Part shown: one piece after another, positions 3,845-23,554 of the stretch
Numbering within the stretch: the first letter of the stretch is position 1
Layout: each line of letters begins with the position of its first letter
Virus record (IMG/VR): IMGVR_UViG_3300027996_000138
Coordinates: 1 to 26,877 of that record
DNA length: 26,877 nt
Reading direction: 5' to 3' (one strand)
Origin: a virus
Position numbers and translations under genes: made by a program
The notes under the pieces: generated by a model
Database searches by the model: none
Seen by the model: only the letters and a program-made list of their open reading frames with translations
What the model was told of the DNA's origin: nothing

Positions 3845-3873
3845 TTGACAATAAACTATTTATGTAGTAAAAT
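3845..3873 (+). promoter_or_regulatory. Sigma70-type promoter inside the fibre cluster
   Basis: The 45-bp gap between two fibre genes contains TTGACA (3845-3850), a spacer of exactly 17 bp, and TAAAAT (3868-3873), one mismatch from the -10 consensus. A start about seven bases downstream would fall near 3880, two bases before the ATG at 3882. The AAGG at 3874-3877 would then not be in the transcript. It would drive the fibre genes from 3882 onward. Confidence 0.65.
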
Positions 3874-5156: not shown

Positions 5157-6629
5157 ATGTCAATTTTATTAAAAGCGTATCAAGATGTAAATGGTGAACT
5201 AGTAATGGTAGAAGAAGGATCTTTTCAAGATATAGATTCTGTTTCAGCAGGATTAACTAGAGTACCCGGTAAAGATGTTAATGTATCTAACGATCTATCT
5301 ACTAATGAGGACTTAGCAGCTAAGGTAAATCAAAGTCAAATAGTTGACGATAACACTTTCGCCTCCCCAAGTTCTACTCAAATTCCAAGTACATCTTCAG
5401 TTAAATCATATGTAGATTCTCAAGTAGAAAGTAAAGATGAAGCTTCGGAGATATCTTATGATAACTCTACATCAGGTTTAGCAGCAACAGATGTACAAGC
5501 AGCTATTGACGAAGTGGAAGGTAGAGTAGATGTTAGCGAAACAAATATTACTGAACTTACTACAAACCAAGACGATCTTATAACTCTTTCAGGAGTTCCT
5601 GAAAATAGTGTTGATTTAGGTACTTTTGCCGGATCTGTTATCGGAGATAATGTTACAGTAAAAACAGCTCTTAGTCAATTAGAGTCTGCAGTATCTTCTA
5701 CTAGAATTACAGATGTATTCGTTGTGGCAGATATTGCTGCAAGAGATGCTTTAACAGGCATCGACGAAGGAGATGTTGCTGTTGTACAAGACGACGGTAC
5801 AGGAAGGAGACATTCTTACATATATGACGGATCTGCTTGGATTGATATAAAAACAGGTGATCAGGTTTTTACAGTTAATGGACAAACTGATGACGTAGTA
5901 TTAGATACTGATGATGTACTAGAAGGTTCTACAAATCTATACCATACAACTGCTAGAGCTAGAGCCGCAGCAGTAGTCAACTCTACAGCAGGTAGTGAGT
6001 CAGACCAAGCTGCTTCAGTAGTTGCTATGAAAAGTTATGTAACTGGTCAATTAGCTCTACAAGACGAAGCTTCTGAGATAGGATATGATAATTCTACATC
6101 AGGATTAGCTGCTACGGACGTACAGGATGCTTTAGATGAAATAGATGCTAATGTAGATGCTTTAGCTGCAATAACTAAAGAATATGTATACGTTAACCAA
6201 ACTGTTGCTCAAACTGGAATACAAGCTACAGCAACTTCAATAGTATTTGATAATACTGCTATTAATTCTAACGGTTCGGTATTCACAGTAAATAATACTA
6301 ATGGACAAATTACAGTAAATAAAACTTCTACTTTTAAGTTAGAATATGTACTTACTGCAGACACTCAAGATGGTGCTAGACGTACATCAGAGACAATTCT
6401 TGAAATAGATACTGGATCAGGGTTTTCTGCACTGTCTGCGGCTTTAGGTTCTGCCACAGCTTATGGATATCACAGAAATAATGCTTCTGGTGAAAATAGT
6501 GCAGCAGGTCAAGCTATTCTAAGTTTAAATTCGGGAGATAAAGTAAGACTAGTAACTAGAAGAGCTAACGGAACAGGGACAATAAAAACAGTCCCTAATG
6601 GTACTTCGTTTTCTATTGAGGAGAAGTAA
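5157..6629 (+). CDS. Tail fibre protein with repeated shaft modules
   Basis: 490 residues; AGGAG nine bases before ATG. Residues 1-52 (LLKAYQDVNGELVMVEEG, TRVPG, SNDLSTNEDL) match the N-terminus of the next fibre at 6629, suggesting a common attachment domain. Two shaft repeats follow, at about 80-124 and 286-333, each with KSYV, DEASEI-x-YDNSTSGLAATDVQ and a following acidic helix. Between them lie VADIAARDALT...GDVAVVQDDGTGRRH-type sequence (about 188-220) and VNGQTDDVVLDTDDVLEGSTNLY (about 240-262), both common phage-fibre motifs. The head (about 396-490) matches that of the 3882 fibre: GARRTSETILE, YGYHRNNASGEN, IKTVPNGTSFSIEE. Its stop is fused to the next start as TAATG. Confidence 0.8.
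   Translation: MSILLKAYQDVNGELVMVEEGSFQDIDSVSAGLTRVPGKDVNVSNDLSTNEDLAAKVNQSQIVDDNTFASPSSTQIPSTSSVKSYVDSQVESKDEASEISYDNSTSGLAATDVQAAIDEVEGRVDVSETNITELTTNQDDLITLSGVPENSVDLGTFAGSVIGDNVTVKTALSQLESAVSSTRITDVFVVADIAARDALTGIDEGDVAVVQDDGTGRRHSYIYDGSAWIDIKTGDQVFTVNGQTDDVVLDTDDVLEGSTNLYHTTARARAAAVVNSTAGSESDQAASVVAMKSYVTGQLALQDEASEIGYDNSTSGLAATDVQDALDEIDANVDALAAITKEYVYVNQTVAQTGIQATATSIVFDNTAINSNGSVFTVNNTNGQITVNKTSTFKLEYVLTADTQDGARRTSETILEIDTGSGFSALSAALGSATAYGYHRNNASGENSAAGQAILSLNSGDKVRLVTRRANGTGTIKTVPNGTSFSIEEK
5394..5528 (+). repeat. Fibre shaft module, copy 1
   Basis: Encodes residues about 80-124 of the fibre at 5157, with KDEASEISYDNSTSGLAATD at its core. It pairs with the copy at 6012-6155. The protein is far better conserved than the codons, which differ at many third positions, so this is an old in-frame duplication. 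A looser relative lies in the fibre at 2067 (KDDASEITY). Confidence 0.75.
6012..6155 (+). repeat. Fibre shaft module, copy 2
   Basis: Encodes residues about 286-333 of the same fibre, with QDEASEIGYDNSTSGLAATD at its core. It is preceded by AAVVNSTAGSESDQAAS, which also occurs in near-identical form in the 2067 fibre (AAVVNSTAGSETVQAPS). The module therefore spreads within and between fibres. Confidence 0.75.
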
Positions 6630-8008
6630 TGTCAAAAACGCTTAAGGCATGGAAAGATGTCGATGGTGAGGTTGTATATTTGGAAGAGGGTCAGTCTGGA
6701 GAGGGTATAATAGGTCAAGGATTCACAAGAGTCCCGGGATCTGATAGAGTAGTTTCGGATGACCTAAGTACTTATGAGGATTTTTCTAAAACAGCATCTG
6801 AATTAGAAGTAACTCCTACAGGTAATATTTCCTCAACAAATGTACAACAATCTTTAGAGGAGTTACAAACGGACATTGATAATATTGTTAGTGCTAATGG
6901 TTCTATTGATACCCATTCCGACGTAGATACGAGTACAGTAACACCAGTTAACGGTGATTTTTTAAGGTGGGATAGTACTGCAAATAAGTGGGAACCCGAA
7001 GCATCTTTAATAAGCACAACATATACTTATAGAAAATCTTTTGTAGCCGAAAGAAACAACACAAGCACAGGAAAACTTGCATTAGGTAACGGTTCGAATG
7101 CTTCGACAATGGGTGTGGTTATTACTGAAGGTTGCAAGCTTGTTTCAGTTGGTATCTCGTCTTCAGGTACTACAAGCGGACAGTGGCAAATATTCAGAAA
7201 TGGTGCATCTATACATATTACGAATACGAATACACAACTTACTAAAGTTGATGATCTATCCTCGCCTGTAAGCCTAAACTCTGGAGATTACTTAAATGCT
7301 CTTTGTTTTAATGCAGGTGGTGCGGCCCACACTGTAACTTTTGAAGTTGAAATTACAAAAACTATTACGGGATTAAAGGGTGAACAAGGCGAACAAGGTA
7401 CAGCAGGTTCAGATGGTATTGCGCAGGTAAGGACTGGAAACGGCGCACCATCAAACAGCTTAGGTAATGATGGTGATTTATATTTAAACAATGCTACAGG
7501 TGATTACTATACGAAGGTTAGTGGTGTGTGGAGCTTACAAGGTAACTTAAAAGGACCTCAAGGACCTGCAAGTCCTTCAGTTAGTATTTTAAAACTCACA
7601 AACACTTTTGCAAACAATATTAACTCAAGCGGTGGTGTTAACTATGGTGCTTTTAATACCTCAAGAATAATAGACGATTTTGGTTCTGACTTAACGGTTG
7701 CAACTAGTAGTATAACATTTAATATCACGGGTAGATTTAGGTGTGATTTTAATTTCTTTCTTAATAGTTCAAGTCAAAGAACAAATGTTTTATTTAGGTG
7801 GTCTATTAATGGAGTAGAGCAACGAGGTAGGTCTGCACACAACTACATAAGAACAAGTTCTAACCACGATGAAGCCTCTAGTTTTTTATCAGAAGTCTTA
7901 GACCTTTCAGACGGTGACGTTTTAAGAATAAGTTGTGTACAAATAGCAGGTTCAGGTACAGTCGAAACACCTTCAGGTGAAAGTATTTTCACAATAGAGA
8001 GTTTATAA
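6629..8008 (+). CDS. Tail fibre protein with collagen-like segment
   Basis: 459 residues, started by the TAATG overlap with GAGGAG upstream. Residues 1-52 repeat the attachment domain of the previous fibre (LKAWKDVDGEVVYLEEG, TRVPG, SDDLSTYEDF). THSDVDTSTVTPVNGDFLRW (about 95-114) is a common fibre motif. A beta domain (about 130-245) is followed by a short Gly-X-Y stretch, GLKGEQGEQGTAGSDG (248-263), and a second, KGPQGPAS (308-315), flanking NDGDLYLNNATGDYYTK, a frequent companion of collagen-like phage segments. The head (about 325-459) ends GSGTVETPSGESIFTIE and has the same ending pattern (GT-x-x-TP-x-G-x-S-x-x-IE) as the 5157 fibre, suggesting a shared fold. Inference: an additional receptor-binding fibre on the same attachment point. 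Confidence 0.78.
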   Translation: MSKTLKAWKDVDGEVVYLEEGQSGEGIIGQGFTRVPGSDRVVSDDLSTYEDFSKTASELEVTPTGNISSTNVQQSLEELQTDIDNIVSANGSIDTHSDVDTSTVTPVNGDFLRWDSTANKWEPEASLISTTYTYRKSFVAERNNTSTGKLALGNGSNASTMGVVITEGCKLVSVGISSSGTTSGQWQIFRNGASIHITNTNTQLTKVDDLSSPVSLNSGDYLNALCFNAGGAAHTVTFEVEITKTITGLKGEQGEQGTAGSDGIAQVRTGNGAPSNSLGNDGDLYLNNATGDYYTKVSGVWSLQGNLKGPQGPASPSVSILKLTNTFANNINSSGGVNYGAFNTSRIIDDFGSDLTVATSSITFNITGRFRCDFNFFLNSSSQRTNVLFRWSINGVEQRGRSAHNYIRTSSNHDEASSFLSEVLDLSDGDVLRISCVQIAGSGTVETPSGESIFTIESL

Positions 8009-8484
8009 TGAGATTAGGAATTAGTTTTACGCAATATGTTGAAATAAACAACGAACTACCAGATAACTACAAACTAGGTTATGAATTAGCAGGTGAATAC
8101 TTTATTGAAACAATATCGGCTTACAAAATTTCCGAAAAATTAGAACCTATTATTGCTAGTCTGTACAACCAAACACTAGAAGAGTTTCTGATATTATTAG
8201 ATAGAAAACCCGACAGAGAATTATTAAAAGAAGCAGGTGAGGAAGTAAGTCAAAGATTTATGCAAAGAAATTCAGATGATAACATAGATTCTTCCCAGAG
8301 TGCGTGGGTACTTCACAGGTGTAATATTATAACAATGTATCTAGTGATAGGTGCATTAGTTGATGCTAAGGATATTCTTTTAGACCTAGTTCCTGATGAT
8401 ATGAGTGAGCCGTATCACTGGATAACACAAGAGAGAATAAATAAAGTTATTGAAGATATAGAAATAGCTTACCAAAAAGTCTAA
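8008..8484 (+). CDS. Helical hypothetical protein at end of fibre cluster
   Basis: 158 residues, translation coupled to the 6629 fibre by TAATG (one-base overlap), with only a weak purine-rich site upstream. Sequence is mostly helical and acidic: ELAGEYFIETISAYKISEKL, LEEFLILLDRKPDRELLKEAGEEVSQRF, then a hydrophobic stretch NIITMYLVIGALVDAKDILLDLV (about 106-128). No signal peptide and no recognised motif. Being the last gene of the fibre run and overlapping the last fibre, a chaperone for that fibre is a reasonable guess, but this rests on position only. An 83-bp non-coding gap follows. Confidence 0.6.
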   Translation: MRLGISFTQYVEINNELPDNYKLGYELAGEYFIETISAYKISEKLEPIIASLYNQTLEEFLILLDRKPDRELLKEAGEEVSQRFMQRNSDDNIDSSQSAWVLHRCNIITMYLVIGALVDAKDILLDLVPDDMSEPYHWITQERINKVIEDIEIAYQKV

Positions 8485-8567
8485 GAAAGTAAAAAATAAG
8501 TTAATATAATAATATACTTACAAAATTAAAGGGTGTTAATTAGAATACAACATGTTAGAGGAAAAAG

Positions 8568-9257
8568 ATGAGTGATGAATTTGATAAAAAAATAAGACTA
8601 CAGGCTCTACAAAACCTTAGAGATAAGAATCTAGCTAAGAATAGATTCTCCAGTTCTGATATGAATAAGTTCGACCTTGAGAGAGGTAAAAATTTATCAA
8701 AAGGTCAACTAGATAATGACAGTTTTGTAGCAAAAGGTTCTAACAATCCCGATATAACTCCTTCTAGGACCGTAGTTGGTAAAACCGATAAAATTAATAA
8801 TATAGGAGATAAACAAAATTTAATATCTGGAAATGATTTTGTAGCTAAACAAAAAGCCCTTGAAAAAGAACGTATGTTGTCAAGATTTAAAAAAGCCGCA
8901 GAGTCTGGCGACACAAATATGATGAATGCATTAAGAGAAAGAGCTAAGGGTATTAGTCTTGAAAATAAAGTACCAGAAACTTCTCTTAGAAAGGGTTTAA
9001 AGCCTCTAACTAAGGGACTTAAGTCTATACCTATAATAGGAACCCTAGCAGCTCTAGCAGGCTCTGAGGACGCATCAGCAGCTATTCCCATATTAGACAG
9101 CGCAGATAGTGCAGGTATGTCAGGAGCTGATGAGAATCAAATGATGGCTGAAATCCAAGGTAGAAAGGATTATGAAGGATCACAAGCTGCTGAAGATGCT
9201 AAAAGGAACAAACTAGCTGTATTAGCTAAGTTAGCGGAATTAAAAGGAAATCAATAA
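8568..9257 (+). CDS. Probable internal virion / structural protein
   Basis: 229 residues; AGAGGA five bases before ATG. Highly charged and helical N-terminal half (many Lys, Asn, Asp; FVAK occurs twice, near residues 53 and 91), then a hydrophobic segment KSIPIIGTLAALAG (152-165) and an acidic Ala-rich tail with SEDASAAIPILDSADSAG and a final coiled-coil-like helix ending AKLAELKGNQ. The hydrophobic segment parallels KALPFVGAGIGGLATYSEA in the transglycosylase-bearing ejection protein at 20391. That similarity, and its place just before the connector genes, suggests a packaged or ejected protein. It could also be a scaffold-like protein. No known family is confidently recognised. Confidence 0.55.
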   Translation: MSDEFDKKIRLQALQNLRDKNLAKNRFSSSDMNKFDLERGKNLSKGQLDNDSFVAKGSNNPDITPSRTVVGKTDKINNIGDKQNLISGNDFVAKQKALEKERMLSRFKKAAESGDTNMMNALRERAKGISLENKVPETSLRKGLKPLTKGLKSIPIIGTLAALAGSEDASAAIPILDSADSAGMSGADENQMMAEIQGRKDYEGSQAAEDAKRNKLAVLAKLAELKGNQ

Positions 9258-9279
9258 ATAACTAATACATATTACATGT

Positions 9280-9296
9280 AAATTAGCAACTATATA
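9280..9296 (+). promoter_or_regulatory. Shared 17-bp motif, candidate phage promoter (copy 1)
   Basis: AAATTAGCAACTATATA lies in the 53-bp gap before the gene at 9311 and recurs identically at 14904-14920. Its layout, AATTAG followed by an ACTATA core and then a purine-rich stretch with the ribosome site, resembles promoters of single-subunit phage RNA polymerases (the ACTATA core of T7, SP6 and K11 promoters). Alternatively, TATACT (9293-9298) may be a sigma70 -10 box. No matching -35 hexamer is seen. Confidence 0.5.
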
Positions 9297-9310
9297 CTAG
9301 AGGAGATACT

Positions 9311-9550
9311 ATGTCTAAAATGAAGATTAAAGAAGATTTACTAAAAATGCTCAGAGATGAGATGATGGAAGACCATGAAGAACGTGAATACGCTAAACCT
9401 GAATCTAAAATGAAAGCTACGATAATGGCTGATTCTAAAGAAGGTCTTATTGAAGGCGCAAAGAAGATTCCTGATGCTTTAGAAAAAGCTGAAGAATATC
9501 GTAAAATGCGTTCAAGTATGCACAAAAAAGATAAAAAAGAAGACAAATAG
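9311..9550 (+). CDS. Small charged protein of the head-tail module, unknown function
   Basis: 79 residues; strong ribosome site GAGGAG five bases before ATG, downstream of the shared 17-bp motif. The N-terminal half is helical and rich in Lys, Glu and Met (LLKMLRDEMMEDHEEREYAKPES); the core ATIMADSKEGLIEGAKKI looks like the conserved part of a small protein often found beside portal or capsid genes of phages. The C-terminus is strongly basic and acidic mixed (KKDKKEDK). No cysteines, no membrane segment. It would be the first gene transcribed from the candidate promoter at 9280. Function unknown. Confidence 0.55.
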   Translation: MSKMKIKEDLLKMLRDEMMEDHEEREYAKPESKMKATIMADSKEGLIEGAKKIPDALEKAEEYRKMRSSMHKKDKKEDK

Positions 9551-9570
9551 AAATTAAATAAGGGGCTTAT

Positions 9571-10542
9571 ATGTCAAGAATACTAAATGGTGATGCCATG
9601 ATTAACTCGGCGCGTAGACGCACGATGACTCCCGACGATACTTCTGCATTTACTGACCAAGATATCCTAGATATTCTAGATGAGGAATTAAATGCTCAAG
9701 TTTTAGAGAAGCTTAAAGTACTTCACGGTGATAACCTAACAGTAGCTATAGACATCCCTAGAAGTGAAGATGGAACTTACGAGATTCCATATAGAGCAGT
9801 TGGAAATACATTAAGAGATGTGTCATTACTTCAAGGTGAAGTTTTATATGAGCTATCTCAAATAAGTATCTCTGAACTACCGGATCACTCATACTCCTCA
9901 GACTCTAGTAGCTATCTAGAGCTATTCTACATGGAAAACAGTACAATCAAGCTAGTAACTCCTTCAAGGTCTTATACGGCTATTAGAATGCGTTTCATGC
10001 TGCGTCCAAATGTTTTAACTAAGCAAGAAGAAGCAGGAACTATCTCAAATATAGTTGTAGACGATATAGCAGGAACAACTACGTTAGTTTTATCTAGTGT
10101 CGGTAGAAACTTCGTATCGGGCGTAGAGTATGATATTGTAGGGGCAAAATCTCCAAACAAGATCAAAGCTTTTGATAAACTTCCAACAGCAGTATCAATA
10201 GGATCTTCAGGATCAATAGTATTTAACACATCAGATCTATCAAATGAATTAAATGATATCAAAAAAGGTGACTTTGTTACTTTAGCAGGAGAAACTCCTG
10301 TTCCTAATATACCAACTGAAATGCACCCATTATTAGCTCAAGCAGCAGCAGTACAGCTTCTAGAATCAACAACTGATACAGAAGCTTTAAATAATGCTCA
10401 AAAACGTATGGATAAGATGGCAGCATCTATTCAAACACTAGTTGATAATAGAGTAGATTTCGCACCAAAGAAAATAAAGCCGAGACATTCAGCATTATCA
10501 TCTGCTATTGGAGTTAGGCGTAAAAATAGAGGAAGATACTAA
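9571..10542 (+). CDS. Head-to-tail adaptor (connector) protein candidate
   Basis: 323 residues; AAGGGG five bases before ATG. The N-terminus (RILNGDAMINSARRRTMTPDD, then FTDQDILDILDEELN) followed by IPYRAVGNTLRDVSLL (about 72-87) matches the pattern of podovirus adaptor-type proteins that dock under the portal and accept the nozzle. A beta-rich middle (about 110-240) and a helical C-terminal part with HPLLAQAAAVQLLE (about 252-265) and a basic end (RRKNRGRY) complete it. The next gene, overlapping by TAATG, is the nozzle. This order, adaptor then nozzle, is the usual one in short-tailed phages. Family assignment is by motif and order, and the length exceeds T7 gp11 (about 196 residues). Confidence 0.62.
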   Translation: MSRILNGDAMINSARRRTMTPDDTSAFTDQDILDILDEELNAQVLEKLKVLHGDNLTVAIDIPRSEDGTYEIPYRAVGNTLRDVSLLQGEVLYELSQISISELPDHSYSSDSSSYLELFYMENSTIKLVTPSRSYTAIRMRFMLRPNVLTKQEEAGTISNIVVDDIAGTTTLVLSSVGRNFVSGVEYDIVGAKSPNKIKAFDKLPTAVSIGSSGSIVFNTSDLSNELNDIKKGDFVTLAGETPVPNIPTEMHPLLAQAAAVQLLESTTDTEALNNAQKRMDKMAASIQTLVDNRVDFAPKKIKPRHSALSSAIGVRRKNRGRY

Positions 10543-13500
10543 TGGCTGAAAATAGAGCTAATATAATAAAGAATACTGGACTGATTACTCACGGTTCGGA
10601 ACTTTCTCGCCCTGAAGGATCGCTTAATAAAGCTAGGAATGTTAATATAGACGAGGACGGAGTTGTAACTCCTAGACGCGGATTTAATGACTTCAAAGGT
10701 CCCACTACAGGCGGAGAAACAACATCTGCTATAACTAAGCAAATATTCGAGTACAAAGCTAGTATCATAAGACATTATCAAGATAGATTAGAATATCAAG
10801 ATTCTAACGGAGACTTTCAATTAGCAAATGGAAGCTATACTGAACTTAGATCGGGCTACAGAACAAAGAGTCAAGAATCAAACTCAAACTTATATTTCAC
10901 AACAGATTCAGGCATTAAAAAGATTTCTGCAAAGAATCAAGCAGGATTAAATCCAGATATGATTTCTAACGCAGGTGGACTTAAAGCAGGATATGCTTCG
11001 GGAACAATCGTACCTACTGTAGGGGGATTTTTACCTCCAGAATCAAAAGTAGCTTACAGAGTACTGTTTGGAACAAAAGATCCAAATGGTAATTTAATTT
11101 ATGGCGCACCAAGTTCTCGTACAGTAATTACAAACTTCAGCTCAGACGTTTCAGAAGGTGAGCAATCATCGGTTACAATGACTCCTGCAGCAAATGGAAA
11201 TATTCAAGACGGTGACTACTTTAACTATTCTACACGCGGAGTAAAATATACAATAGTATTTGATACTACAGGGGCGGAAGCAGTAAGACCTCAAACTTCG
11301 GATACAATAGGAAGTACATATGTATTTATAAATGTATCTGGTAATGTTGGAGATGATAATGTAAGTGCTGCAATTTTAGCAAATACTATGGCTTCAAATA
11401 TAGCCGGAATAGAAGTTACCTTAACATCAAATGTTGTAACAATAACTAGTACAGAAGAAGGAGATGTTACAAATATCTCTGATGCAAAAGATTCTACAGG
11501 AGTAGACATACCTGCTACATCTAGAATATCTACAAATACTATCACAGATGGTAAAATAGCTCAAGGAGATACTGCAACTGTAAGAATAACAGGCGTTATC
11601 CCAAGTGAAGCAACAACAGACTATTTCTATCAGATATATAGAACTGGTTCAATTTCAGTAGCTTTAGGACTAACAATTAATGACCTAGATCCGGGTGATG
11701 AAATGAATCTTGTTTATGAAGCAGGACTAACTACGGATGAAATAGCAGCAGGTGAATTTGAAGTTACGGATACAACTCCTGATAGCTTTAGAGCCGAAGC
11801 TTTGCCGCTATATACAAATGAAGTAACAGGCGAAGGGATCTTACAATCAAACGAGCAGCCTCCAATAGCATTAGATATAGAACTATTTAGAAACTATATG
11901 TTTTATGCTAATACGAAACAAAAACACCAATTAACATTTACAGTAGTATCTGTGGATGATTTCATATCAGGATCTACAAGATTTGTTGTAGGTAATGGAA
12001 ATACAAGTCGCTATTATACTTTCGTAGGTAGTGCCGAAGTTACAGATGTTACTATTACAGGAACTCCTGCAGATGGAGACTCTATCTTATTAAGCTCATC
12101 TAGTAATGAACGTGAATATTATATATGGTTCGATTTAGTTGGAGATTCTTCTGGAGATCCGGACGTTTCTGGCGCAATAGGATACAGAATTGATATCTCA
12201 GATACTCCTACAAATGATCAGATAGCTTCTAGAATTGAAACAGCTTTAGTAGATGTTGTTGATTTTTCACTTTCAGTAACTACAAATGTTATAACAATTA
12301 CACATACAAATAACGGATATACAGACGGTGTTAGAGCCGGATTATCTTTATCTAACGTAACTATCGCACTACCTAGTGTAGCAGGTACGGGAGAGCTTCC
12401 TGCCACTGATGAAGGTGGAGATGTTTTACTTTCAGGACTTATCTCAGTAGGTCAATCAATTGATGAAACAGCTAGAAGTTTAGTTAAGATCATTTCAAAA
12501 GATCCAGATAGTCCAGTTAATGCGTACTACCTTTCAACAGGAGACGAGTTACCCGGAGAAATCCTACTAGAAGCTAGATCTTTAGAAGATGTTAACTTCT
12601 ATGTAGCAATAGAGGAAGTAGGTAATGATAAAATAGGTGAAGAATTTACTCCTAATTTACCTTACTCAAAAGAAATAGAATCATTTACAGGAACAAATAC
12701 AACTACGGAGATTGAATTAACAGGACATGGATACACTACAGGCGATGAAATATTTATTGGTTACTTTAAGGACCCGGCTATTCCTGCAGATCCTGATTCT
12801 TTTTCCGGTGTTTATACTATCACTGAGTTAGATCCTGTAGACCCAAATAAATTTAGTATAAATGTCGCTACTCCAAATACAGTAGTTGGATTTGTACCGG
12901 CATTTTCTACAATATTCACTCCAGATGTTGAATCAGATAATCAAGAATTAGGTAATAGAGTTTATTATTCTAAAGTAAATGAGCCAGAAGCTGTACCAAC
13001 AATTAACTTTATAGATATAGGTCCTCAAGATGAAGAGATTAAAAGAATACTTGCTTTGCGCGATAATCTGTTTGTCCTTAAAGACGATGGAGTATATGTT
13101 ATCTCTGGGACATCAGCACCTGATTGGTCAGTACGTCTTATTGATAATACTAGGATTATTGCGCCGGATTCTGCGGTTGTTTTAAATAACCAGATTTATT
13201 GCCTTACTGAACAAGGGATCGTAAGAATTACAGATGGTGGAGTTGCAATAGTTTCAAAAGGTATTGAGAATCTTGTTGACAAATTTACCAACAGCGTTAC
13301 TAATTTCGAAGATCAAACTTTCGGAGTATCTTACGAGAATGATAGAGCATATATAATGTTTGCCCCAACAAAAGATGGGGATACATATTCAACACAAGCA
13401 TTTAGATATAACATATTTGAAAGAACATGGTCAAGATGGGAATATAATGTAACTTGTGGAATGGTAAAAGAATCGGACGCAAAACTATATGTAGGTAACG

Positions 13501-14450
13501 GCGATAGAAACTATATATCTAGAGAACGTAAAAACTTCCTAAGAACTGACTTTTCTGATAGGAATTTTAGCTCTACAATTAATCAAAATGGAGTTAATGG
13601 AACTACTATAGAACTCTCTAGCTTAGTAGACGTAGAAATAGGAGATGTAGTATATCAGGAACAGGATGTTACACTTCTATATATAAATAACAGATTACTT
13701 AGAAAAATGGATCTATTCGACAGTGGTATTATAAAGCCAGTTGGTAGTACGATGATTGACACATTCAAAGCTGTTGCAGGTAATAATTTAGCTGATAAAA
13801 TACAAGAAATCAATGATTATTTAGTAACATTAGATCCTGCTAATATCACAGCAAAATCTATCACTATGAATAACCTTCTAATAAGCGTTCAAACCCTCGT
13901 AGGAGAGCTTAATACAACAGGCACTGTTACAGCTATAAAAACTTACAAACTGCCTACAACAGTCCATTTCGAGTCTTACATCAAGTCTATCGATGTAGTT
14001 AGGAATCAAGTAGTAATTCATGCAGCAAGACCCTTTGTTGAAGATAGTGTTGAGATTTACAAGCATATTTCTAAAGAGATAGAGTGGAATGTTCAGCATT
14101 TTGGAGATCCTTCAGCTTTAAAACAAATTAGATACATGACTATTATGTTCGATCAAAATAACTTTAACGAAGCGGTTGCAAAATTCTCTTCTGACATATC
14201 TCAAGGTAAAGTGGAAGTTCCATTTCCCGGAAAAGGTATTAGTTATTGGGGAGATCAAGCATGGTCAGCTCCTAATGATTACTTTGGAGGAACTGGTAAT
14301 GATGTTCCTTTTAGAAATCCAGTACCAAGAGGTAAGCAAAAATGTCGTTATATTACACTAGGATTCGAGCATGAAAATGCTAGAGAACAATTCCGTATAT
14401 TAGGAATAAGTGCAGTTGTAAGAGCGATCAGTGATAGAGGATATAGATAA
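10542..14450 (+). CDS. Large tail nozzle / hub protein (P22 gp10 / T7 gp12-like) with inserted domains
   Basis: 1302 residues; coupled to the adaptor by TAATG with GAGGA upstream. The N-terminus LSRPEGSLNKARNVNIDEDG...TPRRGFNDF (21-51) is typical of short-tail hub proteins: a list of positions set by the genome end, then beta-propeller blades. The blade region about 820-1000 includes RILALRDNLFVLKDDGVYVI, NQIYCLTEQGIVRITDGG and ERTWSRWEY. Two related inserts, at about 218-320 and 508-600, share a YxIxFD strand, an NVVTIT / NVITIT strand and a following turn; TGHGYTTGDEIFI (727-739) is a further known beta module. The C-terminus (1190-1302) is beta rich and ends RGYR. Role: closes the portal channel and conducts DNA at ejection. 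P22 gp10 is about 470 residues and T7 gp12 about 790, so this is enlarged. Confidence 0.7.
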   Translation: MAENRANIIKNTGLITHGSELSRPEGSLNKARNVNIDEDGVVTPRRGFNDFKGPTTGGETTSAITKQIFEYKASIIRHYQDRLEYQDSNGDFQLANGSYTELRSGYRTKSQESNSNLYFTTDSGIKKISAKNQAGLNPDMISNAGGLKAGYASGTIVPTVGGFLPPESKVAYRVLFGTKDPNGNLIYGAPSSRTVITNFSSDVSEGEQSSVTMTPAANGNIQDGDYFNYSTRGVKYTIVFDTTGAEAVRPQTSDTIGSTYVFINVSGNVGDDNVSAAILANTMASNIAGIEVTLTSNVVTITSTEEGDVTNISDAKDSTGVDIPATSRISTNTITDGKIAQGDTATVRITGVIPSEATTDYFYQIYRTGSISVALGLTINDLDPGDEMNLVYEAGLTTDEIAAGEFEVTDTTPDSFRAEALPLYTNEVTGEGILQSNEQPPIALDIELFRNYMFYANTKQKHQLTFTVVSVDDFISGSTRFVVGNGNTSRYYTFVGSAEVTDVTITGTPADGDSILLSSSSNEREYYIWFDLVGDSSGDPDVSGAIGYRIDISDTPTNDQIASRIETALVDVVDFSLSVTTNVITITHTNNGYTDGVRAGLSLSNVTIALPSVAGTGELPATDEGGDVLLSGLISVGQSIDETARSLVKIISKDPDSPVNAYYLSTGDELPGEILLEARSLEDVNFYVAIEEVGNDKIGEEFTPNLPYSKEIESFTGTNTTTEIELTGHGYTTGDEIFIGYFKDPAIPADPDSFSGVYTITELDPVDPNKFSINVATPNTVVGFVPAFSTIFTPDVESDNQELGNRVYYSKVNEPEAVPTINFIDIGPQDEEIKRILALRDNLFVLKDDGVYVISGTSAPDWSVRLIDNTRIIAPDSAVVLNNQIYCLTEQGIVRITDGGVAIVSKGIENLVDKFTNSVTNFEDQTFGVSYENDRAYIMFAPTKDGDTYSTQAFRYNIFERTWSRWEYNVTCGMVKESDAKLYVGNGDRNYISRERKNFLRTDFSDRNFSSTINQNGVNGTTIELSSLVDVEIGDVVYQEQDVTLLYINNRLLRKMDLFDSGIIKPVGSTMIDTFKAVAGNNLADKIQEINDYLVTLDPANITAKSITMNNLLISVQTLVGELNTTGTVTAIKTYKLPTTVHFESYIKSIDVVRNQVVIHAARPFVEDSVEIYKHISKEIEWNVQHFGDPSALKQIRYMTIMFDQNNFNEAVAKFSSDISQGKVEVPFPGKGISYWGDQAWSAPNDYFGGTGNDVPFRNPVPRGKQKCRYITLGFEHENAREQFRILGISAVVRAISDRGYR

Positions 14451-14854
14451 TGAAAATAAATAATGTAACTCAAATAAAAGCAGAGGATTTTCCAGAAGAC
14501 GCTCAACAAATGGCGGAACAATTAGGATTAGTTTTAAATCCTTTTATGCAGCAAGTTGTTGAAATAAATGATAATAGACTAGATTTTGAGAACAGAGTTG
14601 AGAATTTTCGTCAAGTAGAGATGACTGTAGACGCTACAGGTAAGCCGATCCTTAATAATAAGATTAATGTTGGGAAGACCGGTATAAGAGGAATTAATGT
14701 AGTAGCAGCGTTTAATCAGACAAATGTAGGTGGATTTCCTACTCAGCAGCCATTTATCAGCTATACGTCAATAGGCGGCACTACAATCGAAGTTAAGAAT
14801 ATTAGCGGACTTCTAGCTAATCAAAAGTACTTACTGAATATGATAATCTACTAA
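14450..14854 (+). CDS. Small virion accessory protein following the nozzle
   Basis: 134 residues; TAATG overlap with the nozzle and GAGGA upstream. A helical N-terminal part (AEDFPEDAQQMAEQLGLVLNPFMQQVVE) is followed by NRLDFENRVENFRQVEMTVD, then a beta-rich half with INVGKTGIRGINVVAAFNQT, QPFISYTSIGGTTIEVKNISGL and QKYLLNMII. This N-terminal helix plus C-terminal beta-sandwich plan is common in small phage proteins encoded next to the tail nozzle or fibres. A role at the distal tail or as a fibre docking piece is inferred from order. The family name is not recognised. Confidence 0.6.
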   Translation: MKINNVTQIKAEDFPEDAQQMAEQLGLVLNPFMQQVVEINDNRLDFENRVENFRQVEMTVDATGKPILNNKINVGKTGIRGINVVAAFNQTNVGGFPTQQPFISYTSIGGTTIEVKNISGLLANQKYLLNMIIY

Positions 14855-14884
14855 GATATTGATTTCATTAGAATATTGAAAATA

Positions 14885-14899
14885 GTCCTATTTTAGGAC
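14885..14899 (+). other. Short hairpin before the second shared motif
   Basis: GTCCTA (14885-14890), loop TTT, TAGGAC (14894-14899): a perfect six-base-pair stem in the 89-bp gap between 14854 and 14944. No T-run follows, so it is not a standard intrinsic terminator. It may be a weak attenuator, an RNA processing site or an operator. It lies four bases upstream of the candidate promoter. Confidence 0.4.
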
Positions 14900-14903
14900 G
14901 ATC

Positions 14904-14920
14904 AAATTAGCAACTATATA
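14904..14920 (+). promoter_or_regulatory. Shared 17-bp motif, candidate phage promoter (copy 2)
   Basis: AAATTAGCAACTATATA, identical to 9280-9296, sits 24 bases before the start of the first long ejection-protein gene. Here the A/T core runs on into TATAAT (14917-14922), so a sigma70 -10 reading is possible too; the hexamer 17 bp upstream (TAGGAC) does not match TTGACA. Placement at the head of a functional block supports a promoter role. Confidence 0.52.
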
Positions 14921-14943
14921 ATGAGGAACAAAAAGGAATTATA

Positions 14944-16995
14944 ATGGCATTTGTTGATGATCCAAATCAAAAATCTGAAAACGTAGCAGGAGCAGCTCCA
15001 TTGAGTCAAGGTCAAGCTACGCCCCAACCGCAAGGCGAGTCAGCCCCCACTCAAGGAGATTCTTCTCCATCTACAATTCAATCAGGATCAACAGCACCAA
15101 AAACTACTAATAAATCTGGTAAAGCATCTTCAGGGATGTTTACAAACATTCAGAATTATGTAGCTAAAAATCAACCTCAAGCACAAAAGATGGCAGAAAG
15201 TACATTAGGTGAAATTAGAAAAGCTAACGAAGCATCTAAGACAGCTCAGAAGAACGCATTAAGCCAATTTTCGAGTCAAACAGAACAAGGTGGATTACAT
15301 GATACAGCAGCTAGACAGGCTGAGTTAGAATCTTATACGCGCTCTCAAGCAGGTATGGCAGCTCCAACACCTCAAGCAACACCTCAAGTAACACCTCAAG
15401 CTGACGCACCTCCTGTAGATACAGCATCAGTTGATGCTCCAGTACCTCAAACAGGAATTGATGAGTCTCAATTTGCTAACATCTTAAACGCTAAATACCA
15501 AGGTCCTAGAAACTTAACAGAAACTGGAAATATATATTCTCAGCTTCAAAAGCAAGCTCAAAAGTCTGCTGATATGGGACAATTAACCCAAACTGATCAA
15601 GGTAGAGGTCAGTTAATGAAAGACTTAAATACTAGAGGCGGTCGTCAATATGGAGCAGGGATGTCTAAATTAGACTCTATGCTTATGGGACAACAAACCG
15701 ATCAATTACAAGATATAATGAGTGCAGGTAAAGAAATAGGATCTTCACAAGATATAATGAGAAGTGCAGGTCAACAAGCTCAAGATGTTGCAGGACAAAG
15801 AGCTTCCGAAGTTCAGGCTACTAGAGATGCTTCTAGAGGGTCTTTTGGAAATATAGCATCAGAGAGGCAGACTGAAGTAGATAATAGAGTAGATGAAGTT
15901 GTAGCTAATTGGGATAATTTACCGGCACATTTTAGAGAGTCATTTTCTAATCCCGATGGTACTGTTAATCTATCAAAATTAGAAGCAGTAACTTTAGGAA
16001 TAAATCAAGGAGAGGGAGTTTATAACCTTTCTGGAGAAGATCTTTTTGGATCAGCAGATAATGCTATAGTTCAATCAGAGAGAGATCGTTTAATATCACA
16101 AAACGAACAAGGTAATTTAGCTAGGTTACAAGCCTTATCAAACTTAGCAACAGGTATGGGCGATGAGAAATTATACGACATAACAAGCGCAGGAAAAGCA
16201 GATTACAGTAATATAGATAGAGCAGGTACTCAAACAGCTATGGATGCGCTAGACTTGGATCACGTTAGATCTCAAATGGCTAGCGCAGAAAGAGGTTTTA
16301 GAACAGATGCTGCAAAAGATGTAGTAGGGACAGGAAAAGGTCAAAAGACTTACAACAAAGGTTTTATGAAAGGTAGTGGTAAGAAACACTCTACTAGAAC
16401 TTCTACTGCAAATGTAAAAGATATGCTAGATCAAGCAGGTTATGATTTTAACTCAGAAATATCAGATACTAATATAGGAACTAAAGATATATTAAACAAT
16501 CTAGCATCTGCTATTCAAGATACAAGAAAAAATAGCACCTTTGGTGACTTAGGACAAGGTTCAGTTGTTCAAGGAGGGTCCGGAGCAGGAGCAAACTCTA
16601 TGGTTCAAGACTATGGGTTTAATCCTATGAGTGATTGGGGTTCAACTCTGCAAGATGCTTTTGGAGGTCTAGAAGATAGTGGTAGAGAAATTGGAGGTAT
16701 GGGAGGAGATGCTATAGCTACAGTTGGGGATATAGGAAAAGACGTATACGGTACAGCTTCAAAAGCAGTAAAAGATATAGGAAAATTCTGGGGCGGAGGC
16801 GGAAGCGACGCTCAATCAGCAGCTAATCAAATAGCACAAAATGCTGCCAATGCCAATTTACAAAAAAATATGGAACAGAAAATAAAAGACTTGAATTATA
16901 CTAGAAGATCTAATATAATAGAAGGTGAAGACGCAGATTTAAGAAACCAAGCTTTAATGGATATTTTAGCTAATATGGACACAACAAATAATTAA
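14944..16995 (+). CDS. Internal virion (ejection) protein candidate, Gln/Ala/Ser-rich
   Basis: 683 residues; AAGGA six bases before ATG, the first gene after the second shared motif. The N-terminal 60 residues are low complexity (Gln, Pro, Ser, Thr). A helical stretch FTNIQNYVAKNQPQAQKMAE (66-85) is followed by a TPQ repeat (142-153), long coiled-coil-like helices rich in Gln, Asp and Ser, then NWDNLPAHFRESFSNPDGTV. The C-terminal part (about 540-630) is Gly-rich with GGLEDSGREIGGMGG and KAVKDIGKFWGGGG, like membrane-seeking ends of ejection proteins. Composition, size and position after the nozzle match internal core proteins that enter the cell with DNA. No enzyme motif is seen. Confidence 0.58.
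   Translation: MAFVDDPNQKSENVAGAAPLSQGQATPQPQGESAPTQGDSSPSTIQSGSTAPKTTNKSGKASSGMFTNIQNYVAKNQPQAQKMAESTLGEIRKANEASKTAQKNALSQFSSQTEQGGLHDTAARQAELESYTRSQAGMAAPTPQATPQVTPQADAPPVDTASVDAPVPQTGIDESQFANILNAKYQGPRNLTETGNIYSQLQKQAQKSADMGQLTQTDQGRGQLMKDLNTRGGRQYGAGMSKLDSMLMGQQTDQLQDIMSAGKEIGSSQDIMRSAGQQAQDVAGQRASEVQATRDASRGSFGNIASERQTEVDNRVDEVVANWDNLPAHFRESFSNPDGTVNLSKLEAVTLGINQGEGVYNLSGEDLFGSADNAIVQSERDRLISQNEQGNLARLQALSNLATGMGDEKLYDITSAGKADYSNIDRAGTQTAMDALDLDHVRSQMASAERGFRTDAAKDVVGTGKGQKTYNKGFMKGSGKKHSTRTSTANVKDMLDQAGYDFNSEISDTNIGTKDILNNLASAIQDTRKNSTFGDLGQGSVVQGGSGAGANSMVQDYGFNPMSDWGSTLQDAFGGLEDSGREIGGMGGDAIATVGDIGKDVYGTASKAVKDIGKFWGGGGSDAQSAANQIAQNAANANLQKNMEQKIKDLNYTRRSNIIEGEDADLRNQALMDILANMDTTNN
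15367..15402 (+). repeat. Three tandem 12-bp repeats (TPQ coding)
   Basis: Three in-frame copies of ACACCTCAAG plus two variable bases, coding TPQA, TPQV, TPQA. It is a short proline-glutamine linker within the 14944 protein, likely formed by slippage. Confidence 0.8.
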
Positions 16996-17003
16996 GAGGT
17001 AGT

Positions 17004-17339
17004 ATGGAATTATACGCAGCTTATATAAAAGAAAGAGAAGATAGAGAGTGTAAGTATACTGAAGATTGTTTCATTACTTACAAAATATATGGAACAGATG
17101 TATCAGTTTACGACATCTATTCTAAGCCAGAAGTAAGAGGTAAACAAGAGACTTTAGAATTTGTAAAAAAGTTCTACAAGGATCTAAAAGATGACGGAAT
17201 AAAAAGAGTATTTGGATTCACCGATGAAAGAACAGAAGGGTGGCAAAATAGCGAAAGACTGATGTTAAAATATGGTTTTAAGTTATTAGGAAAAAGTCCA
17301 GACGATGATAAATATAATAATTATATGATGATACTATAG
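17004..17339 (+). CDS. Small GNAT-fold (acetyltransferase-like) protein
   Basis: 111 residues; GAGGT three bases before ATG. The order of predicted elements fits the GNAT core: strand CFITYKIYG, strand VSVYDIYSKPEVRGKQE, helix TLEFVKKFYKDLKDDG, strand IKRVFGFTDER, then helix SERLMLKYGFKLLG. RGKQ at about 65-68 sits where the acetyl-CoA pyrophosphate loop (R-G-x-G/A) would be, but the loop is degenerate and the first strands are short, so activity is uncertain. It lies between two ejection-protein genes, a position where other podoviruses also carry small GNAT-like proteins (for example T7 gp13, as family knowledge). It may be a virion or assembly factor and not an enzyme. Confidence 0.5.
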   Translation: MELYAAYIKEREDRECKYTEDCFITYKIYGTDVSVYDIYSKPEVRGKQETLEFVKKFYKDLKDDGIKRVFGFTDERTEGWQNSERLMLKYGFKLLGKSPDDDKYNNYMMIL

Positions 17340-17348
17340 GAGTATACA

Positions 17349-19085
17349 ATGGGTGGAAAAGCCGCAGATCCGAATAAAGCAGCAATGAAGCAGCAACAAG
17401 CTCAAATGGAGAGATTAGATGCTATTGACTTGCCACAGCTACAGAAATATCTACTAGATAGTCCTGAATTAGTTGGACTACTTGAAGCTGAAGGTATTGA
17501 TCCTTCTAAAATGGAAGATATTACAGAGGACTCAGCTTTAAGAGAGAATCAATTAGCGGCACTACAAGGGCTTAAGGATCAATCTGAGCAAGGTTTAACG
17601 TCTCAAGATAAGTATCAGATGGAGCAAATGTTAGGAGATGTCTCAGCTAACGAGAGAGCTTCTCAGGCTCAAATAGAAGATCAAATGGCTCGTAGAGGTA
17701 TGCAATCTTCAGGTGCAGCTCTAATGGCACAACAACAAAATAAACAAAGTGGATCAAATCAAGCAAGACAAAAAGCTATGCAAATGGCAGCTCAAGCTCA
17801 ACAAAATAAGATGGGAGCATTAGCTCAATTAGGTCAACAATCAGGTCAAATGGCTAGTCAAGACTTCGCAAGAAAGTCTCAAGTAGCTTCAGCACAGGAT
17901 GCAATTTCTAGAGCAAACGCTATGAATCGTCAAGGCGTTAACGCTCAAAACTTAGCAGCTAGACAACAAATAGCTAATCAAGGAACTAATATTGGGAATC
18001 AAAATAAGCAGATCGGTAATCAAATAGATCAGCAAAATTTCAATAATGCAATATCAAAAGCAAGTGGACAAGGTAATGTTGCAAATGCTATGAGTAATAT
18101 TGCAGCTAATACTCCACAAGGTCCTAGTGACATGCAAAAGATAGGGACTATTGCAGGTGGAATCATGGGTGCATCAGCAGGTCCTGCAGGAGTAGGAGCA
18201 GGTGCATCAGCAGGTGGAGCAATAGGCGGAATGTTTGAAGATGGTGGTATAGCTAGAAAACAAAAAGAACAAGACGATGCTGATAAGCAACACGCTAGAT
18301 TCAAAAAGAATTATATGAAAAGAGTTCATCAAGAATTAGAAGGTGGAGTTCCGAAATCAGAACCAGTTCATGCTCAAAATGGAGCAATGATGAACGGTCA
18401 GTCAAAAAATCAATACCAACAAGATGCAGACGCTATGGGGTTATATGATTTTACTAAGGGTAATTTAAACGATAACTTACAACAAGGTAATGCAGTAGGA
18501 CTTGGAATTAATAATGACGCTGTAGACGCAAAAAATTATAATCAAGCACAAGATATGATAGCAGAAAAGCAACTAAGAGATCCTGACGCAAGTGCTATGG
18601 CTCAAGGTACTCCAGAGGGGATTGATGGCGCAGCTACAATGTCAGCAGTAGGGGATTTAGCTAAGTTACTTCAAAAAAAGAAAGGACCTGCTAAACAATT
18701 AAATTTAGGAGCTTTTCAAATGCAAAGACCTGAAAATGCTTTAGGGTCTTATCAACCTTTCGCAGATGGCGGTATTCCAATGTACGCTTCTGATGGAATG
18801 GGTGACATAGTTGATTCTGGAATGGATTCATATGCAGATGATAGAGTAGACGCTAAAATAAACGACGGAGAAGCAATTCTTAACGTACCGCAACAACAAA
18901 GATTCATGGATTTAGTTCGTGGGAAAATAAGTGTTGACGAATTAGGAAATGATGATATAGTAGAAGGAGTTCCAAAAGACTACAGGGACGAGCTACATGA
19001 TAAGATAGAAGGCGGAGAATCAAGTGGATCTTCAGATAAAGTTGCAGGACTTGAAAAACTTCTAGAAATGTTGGGGAGAAGTTAA
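17349..19085 (+). CDS. Internal virion (ejection) protein candidate with glycine zipper
   Basis: 578 residues; AGGAG six bases before ATG. Residues 95-250 are Gln/Ala/Met-rich helix with RRGMQSSGAALMAQQQ, a pattern common in phage ejection-type proteins. Residues about 265-296 form a glycine-zipper hydrophobic stretch (IAGGIMGASAGPAGVGAGAS, AGGAIGG), likely membrane-inserting. Two DGG turns follow: FEDGGIARKQ (296-305) and FADGGIPMYASDG (471-483). Then comes DAKINDGEAILNVPQQQRFM (501-520), a conserved box seen at the end of such proteins. Inferred role: released into the envelope at infection to help form a DNA path. It overlaps the next gene by TAATG. Confidence 0.6.
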   Translation: MGGKAADPNKAAMKQQQAQMERLDAIDLPQLQKYLLDSPELVGLLEAEGIDPSKMEDITEDSALRENQLAALQGLKDQSEQGLTSQDKYQMEQMLGDVSANERASQAQIEDQMARRGMQSSGAALMAQQQNKQSGSNQARQKAMQMAAQAQQNKMGALAQLGQQSGQMASQDFARKSQVASAQDAISRANAMNRQGVNAQNLAARQQIANQGTNIGNQNKQIGNQIDQQNFNNAISKASGQGNVANAMSNIAANTPQGPSDMQKIGTIAGGIMGASAGPAGVGAGASAGGAIGGMFEDGGIARKQKEQDDADKQHARFKKNYMKRVHQELEGGVPKSEPVHAQNGAMMNGQSKNQYQQDADAMGLYDFTKGNLNDNLQQGNAVGLGINNDAVDAKNYNQAQDMIAEKQLRDPDASAMAQGTPEGIDGAATMSAVGDLAKLLQKKKGPAKQLNLGAFQMQRPENALGSYQPFADGGIPMYASDGMGDIVDSGMDSYADDRVDAKINDGEAILNVPQQQRFMDLVRGKISVDELGNDDIVEGVPKDYRDELHDKIEGGESSGSSDKVAGLEKLLEMLGRS

Positions 19086-20389
19086 TGGATATTGATAAAC
19101 TTAGAAATGCTCTAATGGGATTAAAAGGTGAAACGCCGGAGATTCCATATGATACAGAAGCTAATCAAAGAGCTGCTATAGAGCAGGCTAATTCTGCTGT
19201 TGAAAATCCAAATACACAAACTAAACCAGAAAGGATTGAGGCAGTACAAGAGCAAGAGAGCTTAGAAACTCCACAAGGTCAACTAGATCAAGCTAGAGAA
19301 ATAGCTAGTGTTCCAAGTAACCCATCGGCAGAAACTAATATTAGAAATGCTGTTGATAAAAAAGATGATAAAACTCCACAGCCTTCTCCAGAAATGCTAA
19401 AATATAAAGCACTTATCGATAAAATGGAAGCATTACAGAACGCTCCTAAAAAGGAAGCTTCTACAGGCGATACTGTTATGAATTGGTTAACTGGTATAGG
19501 TCAAGGAGCAAAAGTATATGCTGATATAAATAATGTTAGAACTCCTAATGTGGACTATTGGGGAGATAAAACAGCTAAAAAAACAGCATCTGCAAAAAAA
19601 GAAGAAATAGGCGGATTAAAGCAATTACAAGATGCTTATGGAAAGTATATGGCATTACAAAATAAAGATAAAGACAAAAAAGGCGATAAAAATAAAATAT
19701 TCCAAACTAGATCAGGACTAGTACAGTTAGGAGAAGATGGTAAGCCTGTACAGATATATAAAGATCCTTATATGGAATCAGGAAGGAAAGTAAAAGAAGA
19801 ATCATTAGATTTAAGAAAAGACTCTTTTAAACTAACTAAAGAAATGAAAGGAAGATTATCAGATACGGAAGTAGACTCTGTGAATAGATTTGATGATGGG
19901 GTCCGTATATTAGATGATATAGATGATTTATTAAAAAACACTGATGTTAACACTGATCTAGGACCTTACGCATCAAAAGCAGAAAGTATGCAGCAGTATA
20001 TACCCGGAATGGAAATGGATGAGCCTTTTGTAAAGACTCAACAATTGGTTGGAATACAATTAGCAGATTATGTAAAATCTATTTCAGGGGCACAAGTATC
20101 GGAAGAAGAGGCTCAAAGATTATTGAAGAATATACCTAATATGTCAGATAAGCCCTTAGCTTTTAAAACAAAACTAGATCAATTTAGAAAAGATTTAAAA
20201 GAATCTAAAGACTTATATTTAGATAATATAGGGATACAGAAAAAAGGTGCTGAGAAATTTAAAGAAGGTAAGAAATCCTCAGAGAGGTATAGTACATCTC
20301 AAGAAAGAGGGATTGAAAATGTTATGAGAAATAATAATGTTAGTAGAGAACAAGCAATAAAAGCTTTAAAAAAAGCAAAGAAGTTATAA
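19085..20389 (+). CDS. Internal virion (ejection) protein candidate
   Basis: 434 residues; start by TAATG with GGGGAG upstream. The N-terminal 130 residues are polar and disordered-looking (Glu, Gln, Pro, Asn). A lysine-rich stretch (about 195-206, NKDKDKKGDKNK) precedes FQTRSGLVQLGEDGKPVQIY. The C-terminal helical part has FVKTQQLVGIQLADYVKSIS then GAQVSEEEAQRLL and IPNMSDKPLAFKTKLDQF (about 316-371). The IS-GA-x-VS-x-x-EA pattern recurs in DNA-ejection-type proteins of podoviruses. No membrane segment or catalytic motif. It is sandwiched between two other candidate ejection proteins, giving a three- or four-protein set like the T7 gp14-gp15-gp16 core in number. No homology to those is claimed. 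Confidence 0.55.
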   Translation: MDIDKLRNALMGLKGETPEIPYDTEANQRAAIEQANSAVENPNTQTKPERIEAVQEQESLETPQGQLDQAREIASVPSNPSAETNIRNAVDKKDDKTPQPSPEMLKYKALIDKMEALQNAPKKEASTGDTVMNWLTGIGQGAKVYADINNVRTPNVDYWGDKTAKKTASAKKEEIGGLKQLQDAYGKYMALQNKDKDKKGDKNKIFQTRSGLVQLGEDGKPVQIYKDPYMESGRKVKEESLDLRKDSFKLTKEMKGRLSDTEVDSVNRFDDGVRILDDIDDLLKNTDVNTDLGPYASKAESMQQYIPGMEMDEPFVKTQQLVGIQLADYVKSISGAQVSEEEAQRLLKNIPNMSDKPLAFKTKLDQFRKDLKESKDLYLDNIGIQKKGAEKFKEGKKSSERYSTSQERGIENVMRNNNVSREQAIKALKKAKKL

Positions 20390-20390
20390 T

Positions 20391-22652: not shown

Positions 22653-22660
22653 GAGCTAAT

Positions 22661-23002
22661 GTGGACAGATTGGAATTGGTAGTATCAAAGATTGATGATT
22701 TAAAAAGTGACATGAAAGATAGTCATGATGAAATGAAGCAGGATGTTTCCGAGATAAAAAGCTCTATGGTTGAAATAGAAATAGACCTTAGAAAGAATAC
22801 TGACGACATGAGATACCACATAAAAAGAACCGACCTAACTGATGAAGTTGTAGAACTTTTAAGAGAAGAAATATCCCTAGTAAAAGAAAAGCTTACAATC
22901 ACTTATTTAGCTAAATTAGCTGTAACAGCATCGGCAGGAATTGGAACTATAGCAGGATCTATTTACGGAGTTATTAAGCTTATAGATTTTCTATCGAAAT
23001 AA
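22661..23002 (+). CDS. Coiled-coil protein with C-terminal membrane anchor (XhlA/holin-accessory-like)
   Basis: 113 residues; GTG start with AGGAG exactly five bases upstream. Residues 1-80 are a charged heptad-like helix (LVVSKIDDLKSDMKDSHDEM, IKSSMVEIEIDLRKNTDDM). Residues about 84-110 are hydrophobic (YLAKLAVTASAGIGTIAGSI, YGVIKLIDFL), giving one transmembrane segment and a short end. The plan, cytoplasmic coiled coil plus C-terminal anchor, matches XhlA/hemolysin-type proteins found with phage holins. As last gene of the plus-strand block, a lysis role is plausible but unproven. Its stop touches the stop of the convergent minus-strand gene with no base between. Confidence 0.55.
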   Translation: MDRLELVVSKIDDLKSDMKDSHDEMKQDVSEIKSSMVEIEIDLRKNTDDMRYHIKRTDLTDEVVELLREEISLVKEKLTITYLAKLAVTASAGIGTIAGSIYGVIKLIDFLSK

Positions 23003-23554
23003 TTATTCCTCATCCTCATCAAATTGTTGAATCCATAATTCTGGATCAATAGCACCTATCATATTATCATCTAAAGTTTCCCATGAGACTATATTTATCT
23101 CATTACTAGCTCTACCATGATTAATTATATCTTCATTTCTAGCATAATTGTTACGCTCTATTTCTCTTCTAGGGTGTACCTTATCTAAGAAGTCTTCCAT
23201 TTCATCTATTTGATCCGTATAGAAGCCGCAAAGGTCCCTATCAGCGTCCGTAGTAGTATTAGGTGACTTGTTATATATCTTTTTTCTCGCCGCCTTTATA
23301 ACCTTGATTTGACCCTTTATATCGTCAACTGAAGCTTTATCTATCTTTAGCTCATGAATATCATCATAGCTCCAAGACTTACCTTTAAAACTAGCATTAT
23401 AATATTCCCCATTAAAAGCGTTTAAAAACTCTTTAGCTTCTTCTGGCAATCTTTTGACATAATAATGATTATCCATATAAAACTGGCGTTTCTTCAGATT
23501 CATCTTTGGATCTAAATTTGGATATTTAACCTTACTTCTTTTCTTTTTTCCCAC
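23003..23554 (-). CDS. Conserved phage protein of unknown function
   Basis: 183 residues; AAGGA before the ATG. Basic N-terminus (GKKKRSKVKYPNLDPKMNLK) followed by RLPEEAKEFLNAFNGEYYNA (about 35-54); the KYP-x-LDPK-x-NLK box plus the E-x-x-FLNAF-x-x-EY box is a recurring combination in unnamed phage proteins. The middle is helical and charged; near the C-terminus NNYARNEDIINHGRAS is followed by an acidic end (FDEDEE). No membrane segment. It is the last gene of the leftward operon. The basic head and acidic tail suggest nucleic-acid or protein binding, but no function can be assigned. Confidence 0.6.
   Translation of the reverse strand: MGKKKRSKVKYPNLDPKMNLKKRQFYMDNHYYVKRLPEEAKEFLNAFNGEYYNASFKGKSWSYDDIHELKIDKASVDDIKGQIKVIKAARKKIYNKSPNTTTDADRDLCGFYTDQIDEMEDFLDKVHPRREIERNNYARNEDIINHGRASNEINIVSWETLDDNMIGAIDPELWIQQFDEDEE

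Follow-up and report, generated by a model that had tools for sequence, protein, structure and literature searches.

Late promoters of described phages

The middle and late promoters of phage phiEco32 consist of a single element, tAATGTAtA, with transcription starting 6-8 bp downstream, and are read by the host core polymerase together with the phage sigma factor phi32_gp36 (PMC8948821). Salmonella phage 7-11, a relative of phiEco32, has its motif in the same genomic positions, but the sequence is quite unlike that of phiEco32, its late promoters (GTAAtg-(16)-aCTA) being read with the sigma factor SaPh711_gp47 (PMC8948821). In phage AR9, late promoters of the form AACA-(6N)-TA/G are read by a multisubunit phage polymerase (PMC5312081).

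The element described here was found in a window of 26,877 nucleotides (the whole stretch of DNA analyzed, IMG/VR record IMGVR_UViG_3300027996_000138). As in phiEco32, it was a single 9-bp element without a -35, present in several copies before late blocks, in genomes near 80 kb whose late and early genes occupy opposite strands; the start was predicted about 7 bases on, compared with 6-8 bp in phiEco32. Unlike in phiEco32, its sequence was TTAACAACT, and neither a sigma-70 region 2 match nor a gp36 homologue was found in the relatives. By analogy, these phages would share the design and the motif-changing habit of the phiEco32 group, but with a factor that is no recognizable sigma. Because the element is one 9-bp block, lacks a -35 and is laid out as the phiEco32 late promoters are, its best explanation is probably a lineage-specific class of late promoters, at which the host polymerase is redirected by an unrecognized phage factor.

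Phage 7-11 also has a phage-specific late class in several copies, with a motif that varies between related phages while positions stay, but its promoters are bipartite where a single block was seen here, and no sigma was found here. For AR9, the likeness lies in TTAACA-ACTATA-TA, which holds AACA, six bases, TA and a purine start; however, the conserved block here was TT[AG][AG]CAACT, the window copy reads AGCA, and no multisubunit polymerase signature was found. T7, SP6 and K11 promoters are likewise compact contiguous elements repeated before late blocks, AT-rich at the end before the start, but differ in sequence, and no single-subunit polymerase gene was found in the relatives.

A repeated element ahead of two gene blocks

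The window is the entire public record, a 26.9-kb fragment, with no record sequence outside it. The 17-mer AAATTAGCAACTATATA occurred exactly twice in the whole window, at 9280-9296 and 14904-14920, both on the gene strand (+), which bore out the initial annotation, including its failure to find a third exact copy. A scan of both strands of the window, as suggested there, found no further copy with up to 3 mismatches (next best at least 4), while copies of the same class were found in the gaps of relatives. About 3% of the window was non-coding and the gene strand was otherwise almost gapless; the two copies lay in the gaps 9258-9310, ahead of the 9311 ORF, and 14855-14943, ahead of the 14944 ORF. 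The features concerned are as follows.

9280-9303, + strand: predicted late-promoter element 1, AAATTAGCAACTATATACTAGAGG; exact copy, core TTAGCAACT at 9283-9291
14904-14926, + strand: predicted late-promoter element 2, AAATTAGCAACTATATAATGAGG; exact copy, core TTAGCAACT at 14907-14915
9311-14854, + strand: block behind element 1; ORFs with orthologues in the same order in relatives
14944-23002, + strand: block behind element 2, ejection-type proteins; ORFs with orthologues in the same order
20391-22652, + strand: tail-lysozyme-like ORF (phrog_27932)

The only other exact direct 17-mer repeat in the window (20405/20444) was part of an in-gene tandem, an imperfect repeat of about 39 bp at 20405-20460 (+) that duplicates LDLSSFDEE at the start of the lysozyme-like gene. 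Direct 17-mer repeats of any kind arose in 7 of 100 Markov-1 sequences of window size. The repeat by itself was thus only mildly unusual, so that relatives were needed to decide; it is taken as real because it lies in gaps and, most of all, because relatives conserve it. A better outline of the functional element is the 9-mer TTAGCAACT together with the AT-rich stretch behind it. Transcription is predicted to start near A9299/G9300 for element 1 and near G14923/A14924 for element 2. An AATTAG at 8538, offered in the initial annotation as a weak relative, was rejected as a member of the class, for it lacked the core and the corresponding gaps of relatives held no class site.

The block behind element 1 comprised a 79-aa ORF, two ORFs of 323 and 1302 aa that are connector/tail-tube-like by gene order, and a 134-aa ORF. 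The initial naming of the second block as an ejection module stood, on gene order and the tail-lysozyme-like gene; "connector" fitted the first block on gene order, but no family match was found for its proteins. The left end of the window fell inside tail-fibre genes. Of about six sites, the window should therefore include only the final two, and exactly two were seen; about four more copies would be expected left of the fragment, ahead of terminase, portal and capsid genes. Separately, a near-consensus sigma-70 promoter (TTGACA-17-TAAAAT, 11/12) was observed on the late strand (+) at 3845-3873, in the gap before the tail-fibre-like gene at 3882, and from its sequence the tail-fibre cassette may have a host-type promoter of its own.

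Conservation in uncultured relatives

Closer kin were three IMG/VR contigs of 41, 77 and 84 kb (G001, G002 and G003), with 57-63% identity in the 1302-aa protein and, as the relatives sharing both gaps, 49-63% protein identity. The two corresponding gaps in all three carried WWTTRACAACTATATATAG, reading TTRACAACTATATATAG in the element 1 gap and TTRACAACTATATAT in the element 2 gap. The individual copies were ATTTAACAACTATATATAGAGA and TTTTAACAACTATATATAGGGA in G001, ATTTAACAACTATATATAGATA and AATTAACAACTATATATAGAGA in G002, and TATTGACAACTATATATAGGAA and TATTGACAACTATATATTAGAC in G003. In G001 (L040), the terminase (7968-10499, 843 aa) and portal (10562-13684, 1040 aa) genes were far longer than their counterparts in relatives (about 480-540 and 690 aa, respectively), and their middle parts matched unrelated families; judging from these sequences, both probably contain inteins.

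With a weight matrix, each genome yielded 5-8 strong sites, almost all of which lay on the late strand; reversed controls gave few. Gap counts of the core TT[AG][AG]CAACT came to 72 for the late strand against 5 for the other (13 contigs, the window and 12 relatives, with genomes 3-10% non-coding), and most larger related contigs held about 4-9 gap copies. When 2.9 million viral contigs were scanned with the bare consensus, 51 stretches were obtained, and 42 of these carried lineage proteins (10 of the 42 from contigs that had built the consensus). The exact 17-mer gave 12 stretches in viral contigs, which were rejected as chance; a single one had any lineage-like protein, and there the match lay inside a homing-endonuclease-like gene. 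Among 50,697 phage records, the search for near-identical or protein relatives returned one distant Silvanigrella phage and nothing else, and this phage lacked the motif; the 1302-aa protein, used as a query against 84,980 genomes, found no prophage or host. Terminal overlaps indicated that several contigs were apparently complete (G033, 123 bp exact; G031, 190 bp with one mismatch; G016, 126 bp).

Sites in the relatives preceded the terminase cluster, the portal, the scaffold/capsid region, a post-capsid gene, the connector block and the ejection block, and were always sense to late genes and ahead of ribosome-binding sites. In six contigs (G001, G002, G037, G038, G016 and G009) a site preceded the first late genes, within or adjoining the divergent early/late junction, and in G003 (L047) a late-type site at 1213 (+) preceded a lone 66-aa late-strand ORF among early-strand genes. 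The proposal of a phage-specific promoter is strongly supported by this recurrence in the same gaps and on the same strand, by the 4-9 gap copies and by the lineage-specific variants.

One conserved block and several motif classes

The conservation profile of the gap sites formed one block. A weak A/T preference at -4 to -1 of the first T was followed by a near-invariant TTAACAACT, then by ATATAT of falling conservation and by purines at +16 and +17. Since the 9-mer was the selection pattern (derived earlier from the relatives' gaps and weight matrix), its own conservation was partly by construction. No second conserved block or -35 was found within 45 bases upstream of the gap sites in relatives.

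In more distant relatives the class of the 9-mer differed while positions were constant: TTAACAAGTTA in G014, G017 and G029, TTAACAAAT in G020, and TTAACATAT in G023 and at one site in G004. Such a change of class at fixed positions is the way in which a promoter and the protein reading it diverge in step.

The main alternative of the initial annotation, in which TTAACAAC would be an activator box joined directly to a -10 (TATATA/TATACT) for the host sigma-70 polymerase, fits the TATACT and TATAAT that follow the element in the window copies and the TATATA that follows the 9-mer in many relatives. It was weakened by two relatives, G018 and G009, which kept TTAACAACT and lost any TATAAT-like hexamer after it (the following bases being TTTCAAAG, TAAATTGG, AGCATTAG or AGTATTAG), as well as by the missing -35, and is now unlikely.

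Search for a polymerase or sigma factor

A promoter for a single-subunit phage RNA polymerase of T7 or N4 type would agree with the footprint of the element, one contiguous stretch of about 17 bp without a second box and AT-rich just before a purine start. The T7 phi10 leader begins with a hairpin, and so did some leaders here: 6 of 72 scored at least 10 for a hairpin at the predicted start, against 1.8 expected, a modest signal. The gene for such an enzyme, which the initial annotation had expected the phage to encode, was found neither in the window fragment nor in 24 related contigs, several of them apparently complete (PF00940, 0/24; T7 as positive control, 9.9e-110), and the Silvanigrella phage had no match either. 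Nor was a homologue of N4 RNAPII (gp16) matched by single-sequence phmmer, where two other N4 proteins used as controls, gp24 and gp25, gave matches of 1e-9 to 1e-16. Early-strand proteins of at least 250 aa in the complete G033 were all otherwise assigned, except one of 269 aa. The large early proteins of complete contigs were ribonucleotide reductase, helicase-primase, DNA polymerase, exonucleases, RIIA, ATPase, HNH and amidoligases. The multisubunit beta-prime signature NADFDGD/DFDGD, searched in long ORFs, gave only chance-like matches in tail-fibre or polymerase-A frames. Reading by a T7-type enzyme was therefore left unsupported, and a single-subunit phage polymerase is, within the reach of these searches, quite improbable.

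Several other genes were noted in these regions. Homologues of N4 gp24 and gp25, ATPase and HNH proteins, were encoded at 5607-8973 of G033 (L133), and the pair also occurred in G014, G020 and G023. The early region of G031 (L138, 5085-10662) held two amidoligase-type proteins and a glutamine amidotransferase-like protein close together, and G003 (L050, 11161-13421) held a nicotinamide phosphoribosyltransferase beside a ribose-phosphate pyrophosphokinase, an NAD-salvage pair in a phage.

Sigma-70 region 2 (PF04542) was absent from the 24 related contigs at E up to 1, while the control, the phiEco32 gp36 sigma, was picked up at 6.5e-5; phmmer found no gp36 homologue in the relatives, and no sigma-like or activator protein was identified in them by sequence. 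As far as these searches go, the protein reading the element would belong to no polymerase or sigma family found here. Near-consensus matches to sigma-70 promoters were present in early-strand gaps, so the host enzyme probably serves the early genes; some matches fell in late gaps too.

An action of the element in RNA, with late leaders carrying it as a site of processing or antitermination or as a translational operator, would suit its constant sense orientation ahead of ribosome-binding sites. It is very unlikely, since the element also occurred at divergent junctions and before the lone late-strand gene, where a promoter is needed, and its conserved part was an unstructured sequence followed by AT-rich bases. 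Chance, for which the 7% of random sequences with some direct 17-mer repeat could be cited, is refuted by the relatives, in which the same gaps were conserved and sites were split 72 to 5 by strand, and its probability is negligible.

Candidate specificity factors

For the preferred reading, a host polymerase redirected by a phage factor, two neighboring genes at the end of the early operon provided candidates.

23936-24274, - strand: candidate specificity factor, winged-helix protein (predicted fold, Pox_D5 match of a homologue, conserved neighborhood)
23003-23554, - strand: candidate partner, conserved helical protein with an NNARNRD motif (family in nearly every relative covering the locus)

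The end of the early operon that faces the late genes carried the winged-helix gene in nearly every relative; the gene for the NNARNRD protein directly followed it in relatives, with one gene between the two in the window. Residues 28-90 of the winged-helix model had a pLDDT of about 90, and one homologue matched Pox_D5 (2.8e-07). Foldseek returned no match at E<=0.001 for this model; VIA-align ranked RFX5 first (Z 6.6), with the phage P4 origin-binding domain, AsfvPrimPol and mpox E5 lower, and these neighbors of a predicted structure support only the winged-helix fold class. Some relatives had, by eye, a tandem duplicate of the gene. The protein could be recognized in G004 only from a short reading frame and in G023 from its position alone, and its divergence did not track the motif classes cleanly.

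The winged-helix protein is the leading candidate reader, on conservation and fold only. A host RNA polymerase guided by this Pox_D5/RFX-like protein as a non-sigma-70 factor, alone or with its NNARNRD neighbor, is a tentative proposal, in which drift of the factor would explain the passage from TTAACAACT to TTAACAAGTTA, TTAACAAAT and TTAACATAT. The 23003 protein was also considered as a diverged sigma, which was rejected (poor model with a pLDDT of 67, no meaningful fold match). A coiled-coil/zinc-ribbon family beside a conserved HNH gene was a further candidate reader. Just upstream of the winged-helix gene, a ClpP-type protease (PF00574) with an apparent signal peptide was encoded at 24277-25026 (-), with homologues in G002, G003, G013 and G033; in G033, a strong sigma-70-like promoter stood ahead of the ClpP/winged-helix/23003 operon.

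A model for late transcription

As judged from sequence comparison, the element is real, a promoter, phage-specific and late, and not on present evidence of T7 type. In the proposed mechanism, early genes would be transcribed from ordinary sigma-70 promoters, and the phage would then make a specificity factor directing the RNA polymerase core of the host to the 9-bp element, whereby the late genes of the opposite strand would be switched on. The core TTRRCAACT (TTAGCAACT in the window) would be followed by about 7 AT-rich bases that melt, and the TAG/TAR purine, some 15-17 bases from the first T, would be the transcription start. Between this start and the first gene of the connector or ejection block would lie 12-45 bases.

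A lineage of uncultured 77-86 kb phages thereby gains a defined late-transcription signal, which dozens of uncultured relatives place before virus-particle genes and with which their operons can be deduced from DNA sequence. The four motif variants at homologous positions would form a natural series for mapping specificity. With a candidate list as short as the winged-helix protein, its neighbor and the zinc-ribbon protein, the reader of this new promoter class should be findable with few in vitro tests.
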